Shown here one piece after another: positions 41-27,978 of a stretch of 43,831 nucleotides of DNA (positions are counted from its first letter, which is position 1; every line of letters starts with the position of its first letter). The stretch is from a virus: IMG/VR virus record IMGVR_UViG_3300011269_000008, positions 1-43,831 of that record. One strand, written 5' to 3'. The notes under the pieces were generated by a model. The model saw only the letters and a program-made list of their open reading frames with translations. It ran no database searches and was not told the origin of the DNA. Position numbers and translations under genes: made by a program.

Positions 41-286
41 TTAGACTTTCCTCGGAAAGATCGGAGCCATGTTCACGCGCGGACGCCACGCCGGCAGGAG
101 CGAAAGTTGCTGCGGCTGCAAGGAGGCGAGGACGGATTCCAAATAACCGTCATCGCCTCCCGCGGCCTGCCCAGCCTGCGGGGACTGGGCGGGGGAACCT
201 GGGAATGATCCCGTTCCGCCAGCCGTATAAGTCGGCGCCTGTGGAACTTGTTGAGGCCATGTGGGCTGCGGTTGCGCTTTACCCAT
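41..286 (-). CDS. Small Pro/Gln-rich virion-cluster protein
   Basis: An 81-aa unknown protein. Its ATG overlaps the end of the transglycosylase gene (ATGGGTAA), and its TAA is directly followed by the ATG of the tail-collar gene, so it is locked into the late operon. The N-terminal half is rich in Pro, Gln and Gly. The middle has a short amphipathic stretch (DDGYLESVLASLQPQQ) and the end is basic (AWRPRVNMAPIFPRK). No signal peptide or membrane segment is seen. A small structural or assembly role is inferred from position only. Confidence 0.7.
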   Translation of the reverse strand: MGKAQPQPTWPQQVPQAPTYTAGGTGSFPGSPAQSPQAGQAAGGDDGYLESVLASLQPQQLSLLPAWRPRVNMAPIFPRKV

Positions 287-5694: not shown

Positions 5695-6100
5695 TGCCGA
5701 GTTCCTTTTCCAGAACGAGTGCTTTTGTCCGATAGTCTTTGAGGATTCTTGACCAGCCCGGGCGGCCAAGAATGCGAGATATCGTGCAGCCTTCGGCGAT
5801 GAAGTGATCTTCAAGGCCCGATCGCAGATGACCAAACTTTTCCCATCCGGATCCCGCATGAGCGACAATCGTGCCGATCTTGCTGCCGTTTTCTTCCGTT
5901 AGTTGGGTAACGGCTGCGGCGACGATCTTCTGTCCGTCCCAGGCGATCCAAAGCAGCATTGAGCCGGAGAGCACCTTCGCCTCGACGGTAGCGAAGTCAG
6001 TGAGGCCCATTGCTAGGGCGGCCCGGATTAGGTCCGCGGCATGGGGCCAGATTTGCGGAACGAGACTCGGAGAAACGCAATAGCCTTCGATATCAGACAA
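5642..6100 (-). CDS. GNAT-like acetyltransferase-fold protein
   Basis: 152 aa with a TTG start that overlaps the fibre gene end by 8 nt. The order of elements fits a small GNAT fold found in phage late operons: an N-terminal helix pair (PQIWPHAADLIRAAL), then LLWIAWDGQKIVAAAVTQL (strands 2-4), KIGTIVAHAG, and ISRILGRPGWSRILKDYRTKALVLEKEL (last helix and strand). The substrate is unknown. A role in modifying a virion or host protein is conceivable. Confidence 0.65.
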   Translation of the reverse strand: MSDIEGYCVSPSLVPQIWPHAADLIRAALAMGLTDFATVEAKVLSGSMLLWIAWDGQKIVAAAVTQLTEENGSKIGTIVAHAGSGWEKFGHLRSGLEDHFIAEGCTISRILGRPGWSRILKDYRTKALVLEKELGNGKELDQGCHQTSGRAP

Positions 6101-7025
6101 GGCTCACGGTCTTTGTCACGCCATTGATACGTATTTTCAGACCGGTATTCGTATTGCTTTCGAGCCATATATCTCCATCGACAGGAGACGTTGGAGGACC
6201 GCCCACGGCAAGACGAATCGACGACTTAGCAGAAGTAGCCGCCCCCACATTGGTTATCGTGGAAACAGACACCGAGGTGCCGAGCGCAGAAAGCGCGGAG
6301 ATGGCTAGGTTCTGGCCAAGCAGATTGACCAATGTAACCGTTCCGGTGCCATCGAGCAAAAATCCATTAGTCTTGATGGCCGCGGTTCCGAAAGCCGCAT
6401 TGCTGAAATCAATTCCGAATGGGGCAGTGATGGCGCCCCCAGCATTGCCGGTTTCGATCAGCGACCCCTGGTATGGTTGCGCCAGGCCGGCATTGTTGAA
6501 CCGGATGACTCTCGAATAAATGCCGCCAGCACCAAGACTGTCAAAATTGATACCCAAGACATTATTGTTGCCAGCCGCTCCAGTCGTGCCGCCGGCATTG
6601 ACCGCAAGGCCCCATGCCTGTTGGCCTGAAATGCCGTTCGCAACACCAAAATCCAGCTCCACGGTCTGAGCAAAAGCGCCCGCTGCGCCAGTGTAACCGA
6701 CAAAGTTGCCGCCCCATGCGCGAGAACTGGCGCCGAGTGCTCGGGCCTGGCCGAATATTGCAACTGTATTGCGTGTTCCGGTATTATCCGCCCATGATGA
6801 AATCTGGAAGATGTTCCCAGAACCGCTATCGGCATAACTGCCGCCGACCGCAATCGTCTGGGTAACTGGAGTTGTTTGCGTAGGAGGCGCGGCAGGATCA
6901 GCGCCTTTGGCAGAGATTAGGACTTGTTCCTTAAGAATTGCATATTGATTGACCAGATTGGAGAGCTTGACTTTATCAAGCATATCACCAGGCGTTGCAT
7001 AAATGGCCGGAAGCTGCACCGTCAT
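6093..7025 (-). CDS. Putative tail fibre / tailspike-type protein
   Basis: 310 aa, rich in Gly, Ala, Asn and Ser, with strand-forming stretches and few charged residues, as in beta-structured fibres. The N-terminal 40 residues (YATPGDMLDKVKLSNLVNQ) are helical and could attach it to the tail. The C-terminus (PPTSPVDGDIWLESNT, then a short strand and turn) matches a short module often seen at fibre ends. It is coupled to the gp10-like gene by ATGA. Host-range function is inferred. Confidence 0.6.
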   Translation of the reverse strand: MTVQLPAIYATPGDMLDKVKLSNLVNQYAILKEQVLISAKGADPAAPPTQTTPVTQTIAVGGSYADSGSGNIFQISSWADNTGTRNTVAIFGQARALGASSRAWGGNFVGYTGAAGAFAQTVELDFGVANGISGQQAWGLAVNAGGTTGAAGNNNVLGINFDSLGAGGIYSRVIRFNNAGLAQPYQGSLIETGNAGGAITAPFGIDFSNAAFGTAAIKTNGFLLDGTGTVTLVNLLGQNLAISALSALGTSVSVSTITNVGAATSAKSSIRLAVGGPPTSPVDGDIWLESNTNTGLKIRINGVTKTVSLV

Positions 7026-19392: not shown

Positions 19393-19577
19393 TTGCGTTT
19401 CGGGGCTCGCATTCGCAGGACTCCTTGGGGCTTTGACTTAGCCGGCGATTTGGCGCGCCGGGGAAGCTTCATCCCTTTGCTGGCGGCGTTCCACTCGTCC
19501 ACATTGACGCCCTGCGCCTCAAGCTTCGCCCGGTTCTCATTGAAATACTCTTCTTGGACGCGGGATTTATAGGGCAT
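19389..19577 (-). CDS. Small basic protein downstream of terL
   Basis: 62 aa, MPYKSRVQEEYFNENRAKL, with a strongly basic C-terminus (LPRRAKSPAKSKPQG, ending APKRK). ATG overlaps the terL stop (TGATG). A nucleic-acid-binding accessory to packaging is possible but not shown. Confidence 0.65.
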   Translation of the reverse strand: MPYKSRVQEEYFNENRAKLEAQGVNVDEWNAASKGMKLPRRAKSPAKSKPQGVLRMRAPKRK

Positions 19578-20875
19578 CAAGCATATCCCACCTTCGGCAA
19601 ATTGAGCGCTCGATTGAAGCTTTTAGTTCGCGATGGCTCTTCATAGCAGATGCACATCAAACCTAAAGCGTCAGCACAATGTGAGGACCAGTCATGGTCC
19701 GGCCCCAAGCCAATGTTCCGCTTTTCGTCGCGTTTCTCATGATAGTAGATCAATGCTTCACGGCCGCCGCCTGTGGTGGCCTCGTTAAATTGGCAGCGTG
19801 GAAGTAGGCGCCGCGCAGCCTCAACGCGCATTGACGTAGCGCCTTTACCCTGATTGGGAACAGGAGGAGGGCAGTCAAAGCCAGCGTCACGGAAATGGTC
19901 AACATATTGCTTCCCTGTAATGTTGTTGGCATTCACGCCATCATGCGGAAGCCGAACGATTGCTCGCTGATAGCCTTTCTGACGGAGCCAGTTGACATGC
20001 GTCGCAAGCGTCTGGCCGATCGACTCGTAATAGTCGAGGAGCCAGATTTCCTGCCCAACAAATTGCGCAATCCAGATAACGAAAGCATCCGCGGTCGCGC
20101 CGCTGCCGCCGATATCCACGAAGGCCCAAAGAGGGAGTAACGGGTCTTCGCGAAGCTGCCTGATCCGGCCCTGATCGCGCGCTTTTGACATCTCATGCGC
20201 GAAGTAGGCACCGCGAATCGCGGCCTCAAACGAGCATTCGAATTCTTGCGCGAATTGATCTTTGGTAAGCTCAGACTCCGCAGCCGCCAGCTCCGCGGGC
20301 CGCAGAATTCCGGTTTGAGAAGCCTTCAGAACAAGACTGAACCAACCTGGGTCGCGCTGAGCCTGCTCATGGATACGATGGAAATCGTTGTGCCCCTTCG
20401 GGGTGCCGATGAAAACGGCCCAACCACCTCGATCTGCGAGAGCGGGCCGGATGACCTCCGGATAGAGCCGCGGATGCATGTCAGCATATTCATCGAGCAC
20501 GACGCCATCGAGGTAGATGCCGCGCAAGGCATCAGGGTTATCTGCGCCATACAGCCTGACTTGTCCACCATTAGGATAATCAACTCTGAGTTCGGAGACC
20601 GAGACGACGGCGCCGAGCGGCAAGACAGGTGCCGCGGCGGCGGCCAAATAGTCCCACACTACTGACTTCGCCTGGCCTCGATACGGCGCTATGTAGGCAA
20701 ATCGTGGTCTAACCAGCTTACTTGAAAGGGCGCCTCGCTGGAGATCGTGGACGCAGGCAACGGTCTTTCCGGCTCTGCGGTGGGCGACGATGCAGGCGAA
20801 GCGCTCAGCTCTAGCGTGGAAGCCGCGGAATTGTGCCCGTGGCGCATAGTCGATGGCAATTCTTCGAGCTTCCAT
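19577..20875 (-). CDS. terL: Terminase large subunit
   Basis: 432 aa. Walker A HRRAGKT at residues 32-38, Walker B VVLDEYAD at 125-132 with catalytic Glu129, and the coupling motif IGTPKG near 156 mark the packaging ATPase. The C-terminal nuclease shows FVDIGG with Asp254, HDGVNANN near 311 and HDWSSHCADALG near 394-405. It cuts and pumps DNA into the prohead through the portal. The N-terminus is already close to Walker A, so the start is firm. Its first 187 nt lie inside the terS frame. Confidence 0.95.
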   Translation of the reverse strand: MEARRIAIDYAPRAQFRGFHARAERFACIVAHRRAGKTVACVHDLQRGALSSKLVRPRFAYIAPYRGQAKSVVWDYLAAAAAPVLPLGAVVSVSELRVDYPNGGQVRLYGADNPDALRGIYLDGVVLDEYADMHPRLYPEVIRPALADRGGWAVFIGTPKGHNDFHRIHEQAQRDPGWFSLVLKASQTGILRPAELAAAESELTKDQFAQEFECSFEAAIRGAYFAHEMSKARDQGRIRQLREDPLLPLWAFVDIGGSGATADAFVIWIAQFVGQEIWLLDYYESIGQTLATHVNWLRQKGYQRAIVRLPHDGVNANNITGKQYVDHFRDAGFDCPPPVPNQGKGATSMRVEAARRLLPRCQFNEATTGGGREALIYYHEKRDEKRNIGLGPDHDWSSHCADALGLMCICYEEPSRTKSFNRALNLPKVGYA

Positions 20876-21258
20876 GCGAATTCAACGGGACCTTCGCCAT
20901 CCTGGCCGGCAATGCCGAGCGTCTGGGGAACTAGTGCGCCGGGCGTCATCTTGGCAAGCAGATTGAGCGCAGCAATCTTGTCGCTCGCCTTGACATCGGA
21001 CGGAGCGATCTCGACGCCTGCGACTTCCGCCGTCTTGCGCTTGATCCAAGCCACATCGACAGTGACAAGATCGGCCTCTGTAGTTTGAAGTTCCGTCACG
21101 CGCTCGCGGATGGCAGGATGATGGGACAACCGGCGGGCATTGGCCTTGAAGGATGTGCCATTCGGATAGCCGGCCTCGCGCGCTGCCTCTTCCGGAGACT
21201 TCAGAGAGGCGAGGAGCTGAGCGACCTTTTCGTGCTTGGGATTGCGAATAAGCGGCAT
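20689..21258 (-). CDS. terS: Terminase small subunit
   Basis: 189 aa. Residues about 10-60 form a helix-turn-helix of the terminase small-subunit type (KVAQLLASLKSPEEAAREAGYP, then ANARRLSHHPAIRERV), followed by DVAWIKRKTAEVAG and a helical oligomerisation part (ASDKIAALNLLAKM). The last ~62 residues are Ser/Pro/Glu-rich and read in the DNA that also encodes the start of terL. It would recognise the packaging site and recruit TerL. No strong RBS precedes the ATG; the leader holds the GANTC cluster. Confidence 0.85.
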   Translation of the reverse strand: MPLIRNPKHEKVAQLLASLKSPEEAAREAGYPNGTSFKANARRLSHHPAIRERVTELQTTEADLVTVDVAWIKRKTAEVAGVEIAPSDVKASDKIAALNLLAKMTPGALVPQTLGIAGQDGEGPVEFAWKLEELPSTMRHGHNSAASTLELSASPASSPTAEPERPLPASTISSEAPFQVSWLDHDLPT

Positions 21259-21264
21259 GATCTT

Positions 21265-21312
21265 GAGTCGATACGAGTCCTTTTGGACTCATTCCTGCAC
21301 GGTTATGGACTC
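21265..21312 (-). promoter_or_regulatory. Helically phased GANTC cluster upstream of terS
   Basis: Four GANTC sites start at 21265, 21275, 21286 and 21308, that is 10, 11 and 22 bp apart, on one face of the helix. Two of them form a dyad, GAGTCC-TTTT-GGACTC (21275-21290). GANTC is the CcrM methylation site of alphaproteobacteria, and GcrA activates sigma70 promoters carrying methylated GANTC. This gap is the only non-coding DNA of any size between the control genes and the late operon. No clear -35/-10 pair is seen, as expected if an activator is needed. Function is inferred. Confidence 0.55.
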
Positions 21313-21368
21313 AGAACAGATCATTTCGCATTCCTTGGGCTGGCCTGGACGCGCCGCGCAAAGCCGAT

Positions 21369-21896
21369 CTACGATTGAGCGGCTACGAATTGATCGGGCG
21401 AGAACATGGCAGGGACTTTACGTCCCAAGACCGACAATAGTAATTCAACGCTTTCGCCGTCGTCAAGGTCCCCGACGCGAGCAAAGTAGCCAGCGAAGGG
21501 TCCCTTGTTGATGAATACCTCGCTTCCGGGCTGGAAGCGAGGTGGAGCGCCTTTGCTATCATGCGGACTCATCAAGGAAATTTCCGTTCGGCGGATTTCT
21601 TCGTAAACGCCCTCTGGAAGCGTCGCATAGCCGTTTCCATTCTGCATTAGGCTGTGCGTTGTGCGGACACCGGGGCAGGTTTCGAGCCGCCGCCAGCCTT
21701 GAGCGATTGGCGAATCAACAAAAAGATAGCCTGGAAACATCGACTTGACGCGCCTCACGTATCGATTACGGCCCCAATAGACACGCTTTGGGCAGCGGGG
21801 ATTGTAGATGAGATAGCCACGATCACGGAGGGCTTCGGCCGTTTCAAGATCGCGCCGCGTATCTTCTGTCAGTGCGATGTGCCAGCGCTCGACCAT
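21369..21896 (-). CDS. NusG/RfaH-like transcription elongation factor
   Basis: 175 aa. The NGN domain covers about residues 4-105 (RWHIALTEDTRRDLETAEAL; KRVYWGRNRYVRRVKSMFPG; YLFVDSP). The KOW domain covers about 121-172 (FQPGSEVFINKGPFAGYFAR, then VELLLSVLGRKVPAMFSPDQF). It would bind the RNA polymerase clamp. It is the last gene before terS, so a processive antiterminator for the roughly 21-kb late operon is likely, as RfaH and other specialised NusG paralogs do for long operons. Confidence 0.9.
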   Translation of the reverse strand: MVERWHIALTEDTRRDLETAEALRDRGYLIYNPRCPKRVYWGRNRYVRRVKSMFPGYLFVDSPIAQGWRRLETCPGVRTTHSLMQNGNGYATLPEGVYEEIRRTEISLMSPHDSKGAPPRFQPGSEVFINKGPFAGYFARVGDLDDGESVELLLSVLGRKVPAMFSPDQFVAAQS

Positions 21897-21899
21897 GGT

Positions 21900-22679
21900 T
21901 CACCCATATTTCATGAAATCTTCTTCGTCTCCGGGCTTCATGAGGGTATCGGAAGGCGGGCCGGTGGATTGCTTGGGCGGGTAGAGCGTTTCAAAATACC
22001 AGCCGCGATGGCGCTTGCCGTTGAGTTCGACGTGACCGATGAGCAGCGGCGAATGTCCATGACGGACCCAGGCTTTCCAAGGTTCTGAGCCTTCGATTAC
22101 GGGAAGGCGCTTGGATTTTCTTGCTTGCTCGGCAGCTCTCAGCCTTTCGATTTGCTCAGTGCGAGCCTTCGGATCGAAATTATCCACAGGAGGACACGGC
22201 ACCCTACCCTCTTGCTGAGACTCTTCTGGTTCTAATCCTGATGGTTCAGGCTCTATATGCGGGGTGCAAACAGTTGCATGTGGTCCATGTGAAGCTGTTT
22301 GCACATGGAGTTCCGAATCCTCACCATGTGCAGGATTTGCATATGGTTCATCTATGTCGTCGATGAAGTCGCGGATGACGCCTTGGGCGCTGATCCAGGA
22401 CGCGGAAGGCCGGTCAAACATAATCCAGTAATGATTGGTCCTGTGCCGCCCGTCCTTGCCGCGCATGCTATGCTTCATGACATAGCCATTGCGGACGAGG
22501 CTGGCGATATAAGTGATCACCGATCGCTCGGAAAGGCAGACGGCGTCAGCTACCGTGGCTATGCCGGGCCAGCATTCCCCGGTATCCGGGTTCGCGCGCT
22601 CGCAAAGCGCCACGAGCACAAACTTCGGGACAACCGGAAGTTTCTGTTTGATGGCCCAGGCTACGGCTTGGAAGGACAT
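21900..22679 (-). CDS. HTH replication-type protein
   Basis: 259 aa. Residues 1-90 form a winged helix-turn-helix (VPKFVLVALCERANPDTGECWPG; TVADAVCLSERSVITYIASL; VRNGYVMKHSM; HYWIMF) of the kind found in phage replication initiators and plasmid Rep-like proteins. The middle is disordered and acidic (EPEPSGLEPEESQQEG). The C-terminus (EPWKAWVRHGHSP, then GKRHRGWYFETLYPP) is a small basic domain. Origin binding and helicase loading are possible; no ATPase motif is present. Confidence 0.7.
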   Translation of the reverse strand: MSFQAVAWAIKQKLPVVPKFVLVALCERANPDTGECWPGIATVADAVCLSERSVITYIASLVRNGYVMKHSMRGKDGRHRTNHYWIMFDRPSASWISAQGVIRDFIDDIDEPYANPAHGEDSELHVQTASHGPHATVCTPHIEPEPSGLEPEESQQEGRVPCPPVDNFDPKARTEQIERLRAAEQARKSKRLPVIEGSEPWKAWVRHGHSPLLIGHVELNGKRHRGWYFETLYPPKQSTGPPSDTLMKPGDEEDFMKYG

Positions 22680-23243: not shown

Positions 23244-24042
23244 TAACAATCTCCGTTAGCTCGCCGAGAACAATCTCTGCCAATTCTCGATCGCCATCCG
23301 GCAACACGTATGGTTTGCCGAGTTCGCGACCGTGGGCGATGATCCCAAGCTGATTGGAAATATCATGCCAAAGACTTTTGCCAGCTTCGTCTGCTTGCTT
23401 CAGGCGATGCGCGCGTTCCTCTTGACGTTTTTCATTCGCGGCACATCCCTCTGACAAGCTCATGCGCTCATCGTCAACGAAGTCGGCAAGGTCTGGCGCC
23501 TCCAATCGGAGCCGATCTAAGCGCGCTTCAGTTCCTATCGAGCGTTGTTGCTCGCTCTTAATCTGCTCCAACGCCTTATCAAGCGGGATGCGATCGGCGA
23601 GCACATCTTCGGCAAGGACTGAGGAATGGCGCAGGACCGCGCGCGCATCGGCGAGACGCTGTTTGCTGAACTCTTTCCCAGTCCCGTTTCTGGACTGGGA
23701 ATGCATACCGCGCTTTGCTTCTGGATAGAGCATCGCTAAGGCCATTGCCTTCTGGCCTTTCTTGAGATCGCGGCGCTCCAAATTTACATCGGCAATGAAA
23801 GCCAAAACATCATCGTTGCTGCCCTCAAACAGCGTAAAAGTCGGCTCAACGCCCGCAACCTCACACGCTCGCAATCGATTGCGACCGTCGATCAGTTCGC
23901 GTTCAATCTCGCCGTCTTGGTTCGGTACCTCACGAACAACAAGCGGAAAACGTAGGCCATTCGCTTTGATGCTTTCAGCAAGGCTTGCGAGGCTATCGTC
24001 AGCCACCATCGGAAAGATGTCGGCTGCGGGATGAACTCTCAT
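23224..24042 (-). CDS. ParB-like protein
   Basis: 272 aa from the ATG in an ATGA overlap with gcrA (a longer frame to 24111 is unlikely). ParB/Srx-type domain: HPAADIFPMVADDSLASLAE, then IKANGLRFPLVV and the signature LIDGRNRLRACEVAG, followed by FIADVNLERRDLKKGQKAMA and an HTH-like helical part. Phage ParB-like proteins act in partition, as nucleases or as regulators. No ParA is present in the genome, so simple plasmid-style partition is not supported by the sequence alone. Confidence 0.85.
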   Translation of the reverse strand: MRVHPAADIFPMVADDSLASLAESIKANGLRFPLVVREVPNQDGEIERELIDGRNRLRACEVAGVEPTFTLFEGSNDDVLAFIADVNLERRDLKKGQKAMALAMLYPEAKRGMHSQSRNGTGKEFSKQRLADARAVLRHSSVLAEDVLADRIPLDKALEQIKSEQQRSIGTEARLDRLRLEAPDLADFVDDERMSLSEGCAANEKRQEERAHRLKQADEAGKSLWHDISNQLGIIAHGRELGKPYVLPDGDRELAEIVLGELTEIVNGKVKA

Positions 24043-24521
24043 GCCGCCTCCGTCGCCCTTCGCTCGCTTGGCGTCCCGCTTCCATAGGCCATCCGCGCGT
24101 GATGCGGACACCAGGGATATCCCTTCGCCCCGCAGAACAGATGATCGTCAAAGCCTTTACGATCGTTGACAGGCCAATGGCATTGATCGCGCGCGAGGTC
24201 CAATAAGGGAATGCCTTTGCCGAGGATAAATTCTTTTTGGTCCGAGGTGAGGGGCGGGCCGGACCATTTTCCCCGGACAAATGGATTGAATGCGCTTTGG
24301 AGCGACTCGGCCGAAGACTGCCGGGATCGCGGTCGTGCTTTCGGCTGTCCAAGCACGCGCAAACCAAGCCGATTCAATCGTCCAATGACGGCGTCCCGGC
24401 TTATAAAACGATCCGCCTCAGCCGATATGATGTCGGATATTTTGCTCGCGGTAAAACGCGCCGCCTGTAATTGCTTTACGCGGTCGGTCCAATGCCCTTT
24501 CCAGAATTTCTGATCGCTCAT
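24039..24521 (-). CDS. gcrA: GcrA-family cell-cycle regulator
   Basis: 160 aa. The N-terminal HTH (HWTDRVKQLQAARFTASKIS, then SRDAVIGRLNRLGL) matches the GcrA DNA-binding domain. The C-terminus has LLDLARDQCHWPVND, DDHLFCGAKGYPWCPHHARMA with Cys114, Cys130, Cys138 and paired His, the sigma70-binding part of GcrA. Cellular GcrA works with CcrM-methylated GANTC sites to drive cell-cycle genes. The phage copy is flanked by ATGA overlaps on both sides, in the block just before the late operon. It could redirect host polymerase to phage promoters. Confidence 0.92.
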   Translation of the reverse strand: MSDQKFWKGHWTDRVKQLQAARFTASKISDIISAEADRFISRDAVIGRLNRLGLRVLGQPKARPRSRQSSAESLQSAFNPFVRGKWSGPPLTSDQKEFILGKGIPLLDLARDQCHWPVNDRKGFDDHLFCGAKGYPWCPHHARMAYGSGTPSERRATEAA

Positions 24522-26752: not shown

Positions 26753-26783
26753 TTCTCCATAGCTAGCCTCTGCCTATGGAGAA
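26753..26783. promoter_or_regulatory. Perfect 10-bp inverted repeat at the control-operon start
   Basis: TTCTCCATAG (26753-26762) and CTATGGAGAA (26774-26783) are exact inverted copies separated by 11 bp. They lie immediately upstream of, or at, the first codons of the minus-strand control operon. It is a candidate operator for the HTH protein encoded next to it, or an mRNA hairpin covering the translation start. Confidence 0.5.
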
Positions 26784-26988
26784 CGGCGACGGAAACGAGT
26801 TTCGAGAGAGTGAGTGGCGGCGTCTCCTACATTTGCTCGGTGCGCGGCGCCAACCGCGATTGGGCATGGTGATCGATCTTGATGAAATGAGGAAAAAGCG
26901 GGCGGCCGCCAATTGCCAAGCCAGTCGCCCGCAAGGTTCCGGCCCTGTTTGGAGGAAGAGGGAAGCCGGACCGGGTTCAGATGAGTGA
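26776..26988 (+). CDS. Doubtful 70-aa ORF
   Basis: Open frame MENGDGNEFRESEWRRLLHL, then GMVIDLDEMRKKRAAA and a low-complexity end. Its ATG lies in the inverted repeat, no ribosome-binding site precedes it, and its end runs into the structured repeat region. Listed because the stretch has no other gene; it may be non-coding. Confidence 0.25.
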   Translation: MENGDGNEFRESEWRRLLHLLGARRQPRLGMVIDLDEMRKKRAAANCQASRPQGSGPVWRKREAGPGSDE

Positions 26989-27336
26989 CGGCGGCAGCGA
27001 CATGGGTTCGCGAGGCCGTCAACCTCACCCATGCCGTGGGAGCTTGACGAGGCTCCTGCCGCCGCCGTCGATCAGCCTTTGAGCAGATTAGCTCTCCATA
27101 GGCTGAACGGAAATGAGTGACGGCGGCAGACTGTTGGTTCGGTGACCAATGTCCGCGGACTCCGCGAGGCTGCCGCCGTCGATCAGCCGATGCCCCAGCG
27201 GGTCCATATCCCCGGTGCCCATCGGCTGAACTGGAAAGGGTGACGGCGGCAGCGCGCCGGGGAGGCGTTCGGTGCTGCCGCCGTCTTCCAGCCGATGCGG
27301 GACCCTCCAGCACGGGGGATTCATCGGCCGAACAGG
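26984..27336. repeat. Three tandem copies of a two-hairpin module, non-coding
   Basis: Each ~125-bp module has stem A (GACGGCGGCAG ... CTGCCGCCGTC, 11 bp) enclosing further small hairpins with a TTCG in the loop region, then stem B (for example CAGCCGATG ... CATCGGCTG, 9 bp, second copy). Stem A begins near 26986, 27119 and 27242; stem B lies near 27074-27106, 27184-27229 and 27289-27331. Loop sequences differ while stems are kept, as in structured RNA or a cruciform-type origin. No continuous conserved frame crosses it. It lies between divergent transcription units. Confidence 0.7.
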
Positions 27337-27352
27337 TTGTGGTGGGTTGTGC

Positions 27353-27386
27353 TTGCGGAATTTTAACAACCGTTGCGGTAATTTTA
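27353..27386. repeat. Direct repeat TTGCGG(T)AATTTTA upstream of 27416
   Basis: Two near-identical copies, at 27353-27365 and 27373-27386, are 20 bp apart (about two helical turns). A TTGACA-like hexamer (27389-27394) follows. They may be operator or iteron-like sites for the plus-strand gene at 27416 or for replication initiation. Confidence 0.4.
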
Positions 27387-27415
27387 CTTGACAGTTGCAG
27401 AGAGGAAACAGAATT

Positions 27416-27757
27416 ATGACAAAGGAGGCCACCCGAAAGCCACGATTTAGATACGGAACCGTCAGACGTGTGGCGGGGGGAGGAATTGCCGTGGATTTTA
27501 TCGAGGAGTTTACCGATCTGGGCGCGCCCGAGTATGCTGTCACCGGCGTCGCCAGCATCGAACGCATCAGCGCCGGCCAAGTGAGGATCACCAAGTATAC
27601 GCGTCGCAAGGATGGAAATTTCGTCACGCACCATGAGGTCTGGGATTATCAGGCATGGCAACGCGCCTTGGCGCCTTATGAGGAAGCGATGCGAATAATC
27701 GGACGCATGGGGGCGCCTGACGGACCGAATCAGGATCGAAGGCGCGAAAGGCATTGA
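27416..27757 (+). CDS. Unknown phage protein
   Basis: 113 aa from MTKEATRKPRFRYGTVRRV, preceded by AGAGGAAAC. Strand-rich middle (GGGIAVDFIEEFTDLGAPEY; VRITKYTRRKDGNFVTHHEV; WDYQAWQRALAPYEEAM). No domain recognised. It stands alone on the plus strand and runs convergently into the Cro-like gene with a 2-nt gap. Confidence 0.65.
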   Translation: MTKEATRKPRFRYGTVRRVAGGGIAVDFIEEFTDLGAPEYAVTGVASIERISAGQVRITKYTRRKDGNFVTHHEVWDYQAWQRALAPYEEAMRIIGRMGAPDGPNQDRRRERH

Positions 27758-27759
27758 AG

Positions 27760-27978
27760 TCATTCTGCGGCCTCCCGTGCATGCAGGTGCATCAGAAATT
27801 CCGCAGTAATGCCTTCAATCTCGCGCTCTGCCGCGGCCTCAATGATCTTCGGCCAATAATCGACATGGATTGAGCGATTGCGCTTCATCTCGCTCGCCGT
27901 GGACGGCCGCTTCCCGATGATCTTCGAAAAGGCCGTCACGCCTCCGAAGGCATCGATCAGTTCGGGCACCGTGTTCAT
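27760..27978 (-). CDS. Cro/YdaS-like repressor
   Basis: 72 aa, MNTVPELIDAFGGVTAFSKI, then IGKRPSTASEMKRNRSIHVD and YWPKIIEAAAEREIEG. This is the YdaS/Cro-type helix-turn-helix in which helices 2-3 (VTAFSKIIG, PSTASEMKR) bind DNA. It is divergent from the CI-like gene across a shared operator region, and its own promoter holds an ATCTACAGAA-type site between -35 and -10. Confidence 0.85.
   Translation of the reverse strand: MNTVPELIDAFGGVTAFSKIIGKRPSTASEMKRNRSIHVDYWPKIIEAAAEREIEGITAEFLMHLHAREAAE

Follow-up and report, generated by a model that had tools for sequence, protein, structure and literature searches.

Which function is served by four closely spaced GANTC sites directly in front of the gene for the small terminase subunit (terS) of a metagenomic phage? 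The question is raised by the virus record IMGVR_UViG_3300011269_000008 (43,831 nt, analysed at its full length and referred to below as the window), for which the original prediction, made from the sequence alone, had proposed that late transcription is gated by GcrA and DNA methylation at these sites. In alphaproteobacteria, GANTC is methylated by CcrM. Alphaproteobacterial phages repeatedly carry GANTC methyltransferases and GcrA of their own, and a conserved array of CcrM sites where packaging would start represents a concrete, testable target. On balance, we lean towards the reading that the array is the DNA element at which the small terminase subunit (TerS) recognises phage DNA, that is, a packaging-initiation site of the pac or cosB type. 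The evidence is comparative throughout and was obtained from metagenomic records of phages without known hosts, several of the loci having been chosen by motif.

Layout and conservation of the array

The array lies in a gap of 110 bp (21259–21368) that extends from the stop codon of a gene for a NusG-like protein to the terS ATG at 21258. Its features, with the sites numbered in late-operon order, are as follows:

21265–21313, minus strand: phased GANTC array, identified in the sequence; the same four sites and spacings are found in the related locus L179
21308–21312: GANTC site 1; homology to L179 starts at the T just before this site (21313)
21286–21290: GANTC site 2, one half of the dyad at 21275–21290
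21275–21279: GANTC site 3, the other half of the dyad
21265–21269: GANTC site 4, closest to the terS start codon

Read in the direction of the late operon, the gap ends in TCTGAGTCCATAACCGTGCAGGAATGAGTCCAAAAGGACTCGTATCGACTCAAGATC-ATG. The sense strand of the array is TGAGTCC-(16)-TGAGTCC-AAAA-GGACTC-GTATC-GACTC, with start-to-start spacings of 22, 11 and 10 bp and a distance of 6 bp between its end and the terS ATG. The GANTC starts given by the original prediction (21265, 21275, 21286 and 21308) agree exactly with the sequence, as does the dyad GAGTCC-TTTT-GGACTC on the plus strand (21275–21290).

The window contains 124 GANTC sites, compared to 220 expected from dinucleotide shuffles and 209 expected from a second-order Markov model, and is hence depleted of the motif. 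Observed/expected ratios (second-order Markov) were 0.59 in the window and 0.34–0.70 in seven related loci, so that GANTC is generally avoided outside the array in all of them. Within this GANTC-poor genome, the array is the tightest group of four sites, and no second phased cluster was found elsewhere in the window. The cluster is nevertheless only moderately unusual for the window alone: four GANTC sites within 43 bp anywhere in 43.8 kb have a P of ~0.03 under uniform placement. The case therefore rests on the relatives.

Searches with the NusG-like protein and by alignment yielded L003 and ~79 further phage loci. Across the loci gathered before the TerS-based searches, GASTC-GASTC pairs peaked at a spacing of exactly 10 bp (8 pairs). 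Such pairs were located at the terS start, following a NusG-like gene, in five phages, namely the window, L003 (spacings of 10 and 10 bp), L082 (10 bp), L101 (10 bp) and L120 (10 and 22 bp). TerS-based searches, which were independent of the motif, added L179 (22, 11 and 10 bp; TerS 75% identical to that of the window over residues 1–128) and L228 (10 bp), while a TerS profile pointed to L140, in which GAATC occurs twice, 11 bp apart. In the window and seven other phages, two to four boxes therefore either directly precede the terS start or overlap it. Six of these seven phages (L003, L082, L101, L120, L140 and L228) have divergent TerS proteins of the same kind and two or three sites at the terS start, with the start codon falling inside the last box in L003 and L101.

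A GANTC pair at 10 or 11 bp was present at eight of nine related terS starts, as opposed to 0.7% of random 92-bp windows from the same loci, although the resulting P of ~5e-17 is inflated because some loci had been picked by such pairs; among the four loci not picked by pairs, three carry a 10/11-bp pair (P ~1e-6). Retention of the sites in relatives, on which the original prediction had depended, was thus observed together with their helical phasing, and the comparison supports the view that the four sites are not accidental. Further searches delimited the distribution of the array. A search of viral contigs for triple TGAGTC returned 18 stretches, with L003 as the sole known array carrier, and no relative was retrieved from bacterial genomes with TerS as the query. 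None of the 40 loci from a search with the NusG-like protein, partly alphaproteobacterial, had an array beside a related TerS. Known phages with a distant TerS (phiLM21, Pam5, RcXuper and vB_RpoS-V10) had no array. The L003 TerS matched only itself when used as a query, and an alignment of 5 TerS sequences proved too divergent for scanning.

The alignments mark L179 as a natural chimera. Over bases 1–604 (the nusG end and the next small gene), it shares 78% identity with L003; its match to the window (76% identity) starts at base 636, which is the T of the first TGAGTC, and reaches TerS residue ~110. The N-terminal part of its large terminase subunit (TerL) is of a different type. The array of L179 has the 22/11/10 arrangement of the window and not that of L003. 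Since the upstream module is common to L003 and L179, while TerS and layout are both different, the layout of the array goes with TerS. Inside the array, the boxes of L179 and the window are identical while the spacers differ, and conservation between the two does not extend upstream of the first box.

Among 75 relatives fetched by TerS sequence, the pair was restricted to the nearest types (L082/L227, L228 and L140/L229). On the TerS tree, which contains several long-branched rows, the array label required 3 changes, compared to 7.5 after shuffling (0 of 500 shuffles as low). At the level of sequence, these comparisons show co-inheritance of the array with the TerS lineage and its DNA-binding domain. 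The presence of GcrA does not predict the array: no GcrA match was found in the records of L101 (43 kb), L140 (57 kb) and L180, the first two of which carry arrays; the matches in the array carriers L082 and L120 are weak or interrupted; and L042, L085 and L141 combine a good GcrA with another TerS type and no array. Nor is the array predicted by the NusG-like gene alone, which has a far wider distribution.

TerS as the putative reader of the array

20689–21258, minus strand: terS, 189 aa, putative reader of the array (phrog_51, 3.4e-8; Pfam Terminase_2 below its cut-off)

The product of this gene is homologous to the solved small terminase of Pam5 (21di; phmmer E 1.5e-10). AlphaFold predicted an N-terminal three-helix DNA-binding domain with a helix-turn-helix at about residues 6–50 (predicted local distance difference test, pLDDT, 88–98; 96–98 over residues 11–60), with three rows from annotated phage records left out of the structural analysis. 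The best Foldseek match of this domain was the DNA-binding domain of SF6 TerS (4zc3; TMt 0.79, probability 0.99, E only 0.37). Homology to a solved TerS and the predicted helix-turn-helix identify the gene as that of a terminase small subunit. Its C-terminal tail has no counterpart in L179 and received a low-confidence prediction; it may thus have arisen by recombination where terS and terL join.

A site recognised by TerS would be expected in or beside terS, which is where the array was found in the window (21265–21313) and, likewise, in seven other phages. The TGAGTC/GAKTC boxes present the same helix face about every turn or every second turn, so that neighbouring helix-turn-helix domains of a TerS ring could each contact one box. 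In SPP1, pac consists of direct repeats and overlaps promoters, the ribosome-binding site and the codons of the TerS DNA-binding domain (PMC6316719, PMC4737164). The window TerS resembles the SPP1/SF6 system in having a predicted DNA-binding domain of similar fold. By contrast, the SPP1 repeats have not been described as sites of methylation, and the isolated SF6 domain shows little sequence specificity (PMC4737164). By analogy to SPP1 pac with its overlapping promoters, the site can conceivably be a packaging element and a promoter at the same time.

Since every box is a GANTC, and thus an adenine-methylation site, the array would be marked by host CcrM or by a phage GANTC methyltransferase. 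Extrapolating from alphaproteobacterial CcrM, GANTC is presumably methylated in the host of the window phage. Binding of TerS or cutting by the terminase may, in turn, depend on fully methylated, hemimethylated or unmethylated DNA. Two array carriers, which have GcrA or a weak GcrA-like match, encode NPPF-type DNA methyltransferases:

L003, 1425–2261: NPPF-type DNA methyltransferase
L082, 1164–2363: NPPF-type DNA methyltransferase

Both are homologues (50–52% identity in a genome search) of phiLM21_p027, which was reported to be GANTC-specific (PMC5537653); no homologue of it was found in the window or the other carriers searched. The Sinorhizobium phage phiLM21 itself shares with the window a NusG-like antiterminator and a distant TerS homologue, in addition to its GANTC-specific methyltransferase, but the 300 bp upstream of its terS are free of GANTC. 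A parallel is provided by phage P1, whose pac comprises seven TGATCA/G Dam hexamers inside pacA and whose cutting was proposed to depend on methylation (PMC10028697). In both cases, multiple short repeats that are host adenine-methylation sites lie at or inside the small terminase gene. The P1 site, however, has its seven hexamers in two groups over ~161 bp inside pacA, together with an IHF site, whereas arrays of the window type have two to four GANTC boxes in about 20–50 bp at the terS start. By analogy to P1, we tentatively consider a methylation-gated pac made up of phased CcrM sites, at which TerS would sense the adenine methylation of replicated phage DNA. If true, this would be a second independent case of methylation-gated packaging, after P1/Dam, and would give a function to the GANTC methyltransferases often encoded by alphaproteobacterial phages; the array would also offer a sequence handle for packaging sites in metagenomic phages.

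Several points weigh against recognition of the array by TerS or against its gating by methylation. The TerS of L180 (44%), the nearest-but-one relative, is accompanied by only two GANTC sites, 24 bp apart, and the TerS proteins of L003, L101 and L120 are very divergent, that of L003 lying outside the array clade. Other TerS relatives show no excess of any 10-bp repeats at terS, which indicates that phased repeats do not belong to TerS genes in general. The isolated DNA-binding domain of SF6 TerS binds pac DNA nearly without sequence specificity (PMC4737164). Attention was first drawn to L082, L101 and L120 by their GASTC pairs. A NusG-like gene lies upstream in all array carriers except L228, whose contig includes only 532 bp of DNA before terS and is too short to show the gene; the link to TerS is consequently confounded with the NusG module. 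Finally, no DNA methyltransferase was recognised in the window and a search for the PF01555 methylase was empty, which means that host CcrM would have to act.

Alternative readings

The array could, with rather low probability, be an operator of another protein, bound either by a phage late regulator or by TerS as an autorepressor at its own translation start, without a role in packaging. As in operators, the boxes vary in number and are found in either orientation; they also occupy the place of a ribosome-binding site, with no clear Shine-Dalgarno sequence between boxes and ATG. A regulon, however, would have further phased clusters, and the window contains no other; nor was a candidate regulator common to all carriers found besides TerS and the NusG-like protein.

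Somewhat less probable is the reading in which the terS operon is switched on at methylated GANTC sites by phage or host GcrA acting with sigma70 RNA polymerase, its virion genes thereby being tied to replication or the cell cycle. A phage-encoded GcrA had been claimed, and the gene is indeed full-length and looks intact:

24039–24521, minus strand: phage GcrA, 160 aa (Pfam GcrA, 2.5e-16; full-length alignment to 7ye1, E 1.6e-6)

Its DNA-binding and sigma-interacting parts both align to Caulobacter GcrA in 7ye1, and it belongs to the same operon as terS. GcrA binds methylated GANTC promoters (PMC3667746), and in Brevundimonas, a prophage operon that includes terminase and portal genes was reported to depend on GcrA (PMC7987155). 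In the arrays, 22 of 25 sites fit YGAKTC, compared to a background of 62% (P 0.004), but only 4 of 25 fit YGAKTCK (background 32%), the activation motif published for Caulobacter (PMC7987155). The boxes favour TGAGTCC and avoid the 3' base of this activation motif; Brevundimonas GcrA does not need the YGAKTCK extension (PMC7987155). Like the GcrA/CcrM promoters of Caulobacter and Brevundimonas, the array places GANTC near a gene start in a genome with GcrA. It differs from them in its four phased sites, where those promoters have one or two, in flanks that are not YGAKTCK, and in having no promoter elements and no tie to the presence of GcrA. No consensus sigma70 promoter was found in the gap, the only sigma70-like match nearby lying inside the nusG 3' end and matches of this kind being no commoner than in shuffles. 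No conserved -10/-35 elements were seen by eye between the window and L179, although a weak promoter may be present. The lack of conservation upstream of the first box and the position of the terS start codon inside the last box of L003 and L101 also argue against a promoter. Host GcrA could act in place of the phage protein. Nevertheless, arrays occur in records without a GcrA match and are missing beside GcrA where TerS is of another type; gating of late transcription by GcrA and methylation is thus poorly supported, since the array tracks TerS and not GcrA.

A role in RNA is very unlikely. LoaP uses a leader hairpin, and the dyad could similarly form a hairpin (GAGUCC-AAAA-GGACUC) in the late leader that loads the NusG-like antiterminator, whose gene lies directly upstream; the window and L179 would each have a stem of six base pairs. 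However, the boxes of L003, L101, L120, L082, L228 and L140 are direct repeats that form no hairpin, the predicted fold of the window leader is not better than that of shuffled sequence (z -1.3), the element is missing from NusG-like phages with another TerS, and a better candidate for a NusG site lies elsewhere in the gap (GCGGCGCGTCC, described below). Chance or a by-product of coding, to which the P of ~0.03 from the window alone would still lend itself, is hardly credible in view of the identical boxes between divergent spacers in L179 and the recurrence of the sites at terS starts.

Neighbouring genes and further elements

The late operon (minus strand) has the order GcrA, ParB-like gene, unknown gene, O-like replication protein, NusG-like gene, 110-bp gap, terS and terL. 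In addition to terS and the GcrA gene, it comprises:

24111–23224, minus strand: ParB-like gene
21900–22679, minus strand: replication initiation O-like protein, part of the shared upstream module (phrog_391, 6e-17; 36% identity to L003)
21369–21896, minus strand: NusG-like transcription antiterminator, directly upstream of the gap (Pfam NusG, 5.5e-5; phrog_6386, 7e-10)
21347–21357, minus strand: GCGGCGCGTCC, candidate loading site of the NusG-like protein, conserved soon after the nusG stop
19577–20875, minus strand: terL, terminase large subunit (phrog_2, 2.2e-40)

terS and terL overlap by 187 nt (20689–20875, minus strand). A link of the array to TerL was considered and rejected: a few of the TerL relatives (L004–L039) have GANTC groups, but their sole GASTC pair at 9–12 bp is that of L029 (11 bp). 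A different GANTC group, mostly GAATC/GATTC, was noted upstream of the start of a gene before terL in an unrelated phage (L022:2035-2124 and L027:1361-1450), and L023 shares a group of this type.

The sequence GCGGCGCGTCC is found soon after the stop of the nusG-like gene in the window, L042 (~5888–5898), L003 (~6573–6583) and L179 (~87–97, plus strand), the surrounding DNA being otherwise different. The RfaH ops element, GGCGGTAGC(G/A)T, occurs near or downstream of nusG-like genes in L088, L106, L114, L193, L199, L200 and L202. Of 14 ops matches in 3.18 Mb, 13 fall in NusG-like loci, 8 of these on the sense strand at -12 to +311 of the gene end. Both elements are possible recruitment sites of phage RfaH-like antiterminators. 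As a lead, this pattern suggests that an ops-like site might pass late transcription on to the NusG-like protein, in which case a GcrA promoter would be less necessary.

Upstream of the GcrA-O-NusG operon, the window contains repeats of alternating orientation (26964–27304; TGAGTGACGGCGGCAG / GCTGCCGCCGTCGATCA), with copies of each ~105–130 bp apart. A 329-aa open reading frame over the repeats (26774–27763) is probably not a gene. Similar CCGCCGTCACTC repeats are present in L042 and L085, and those of the window possibly constitute an operator or origin array.
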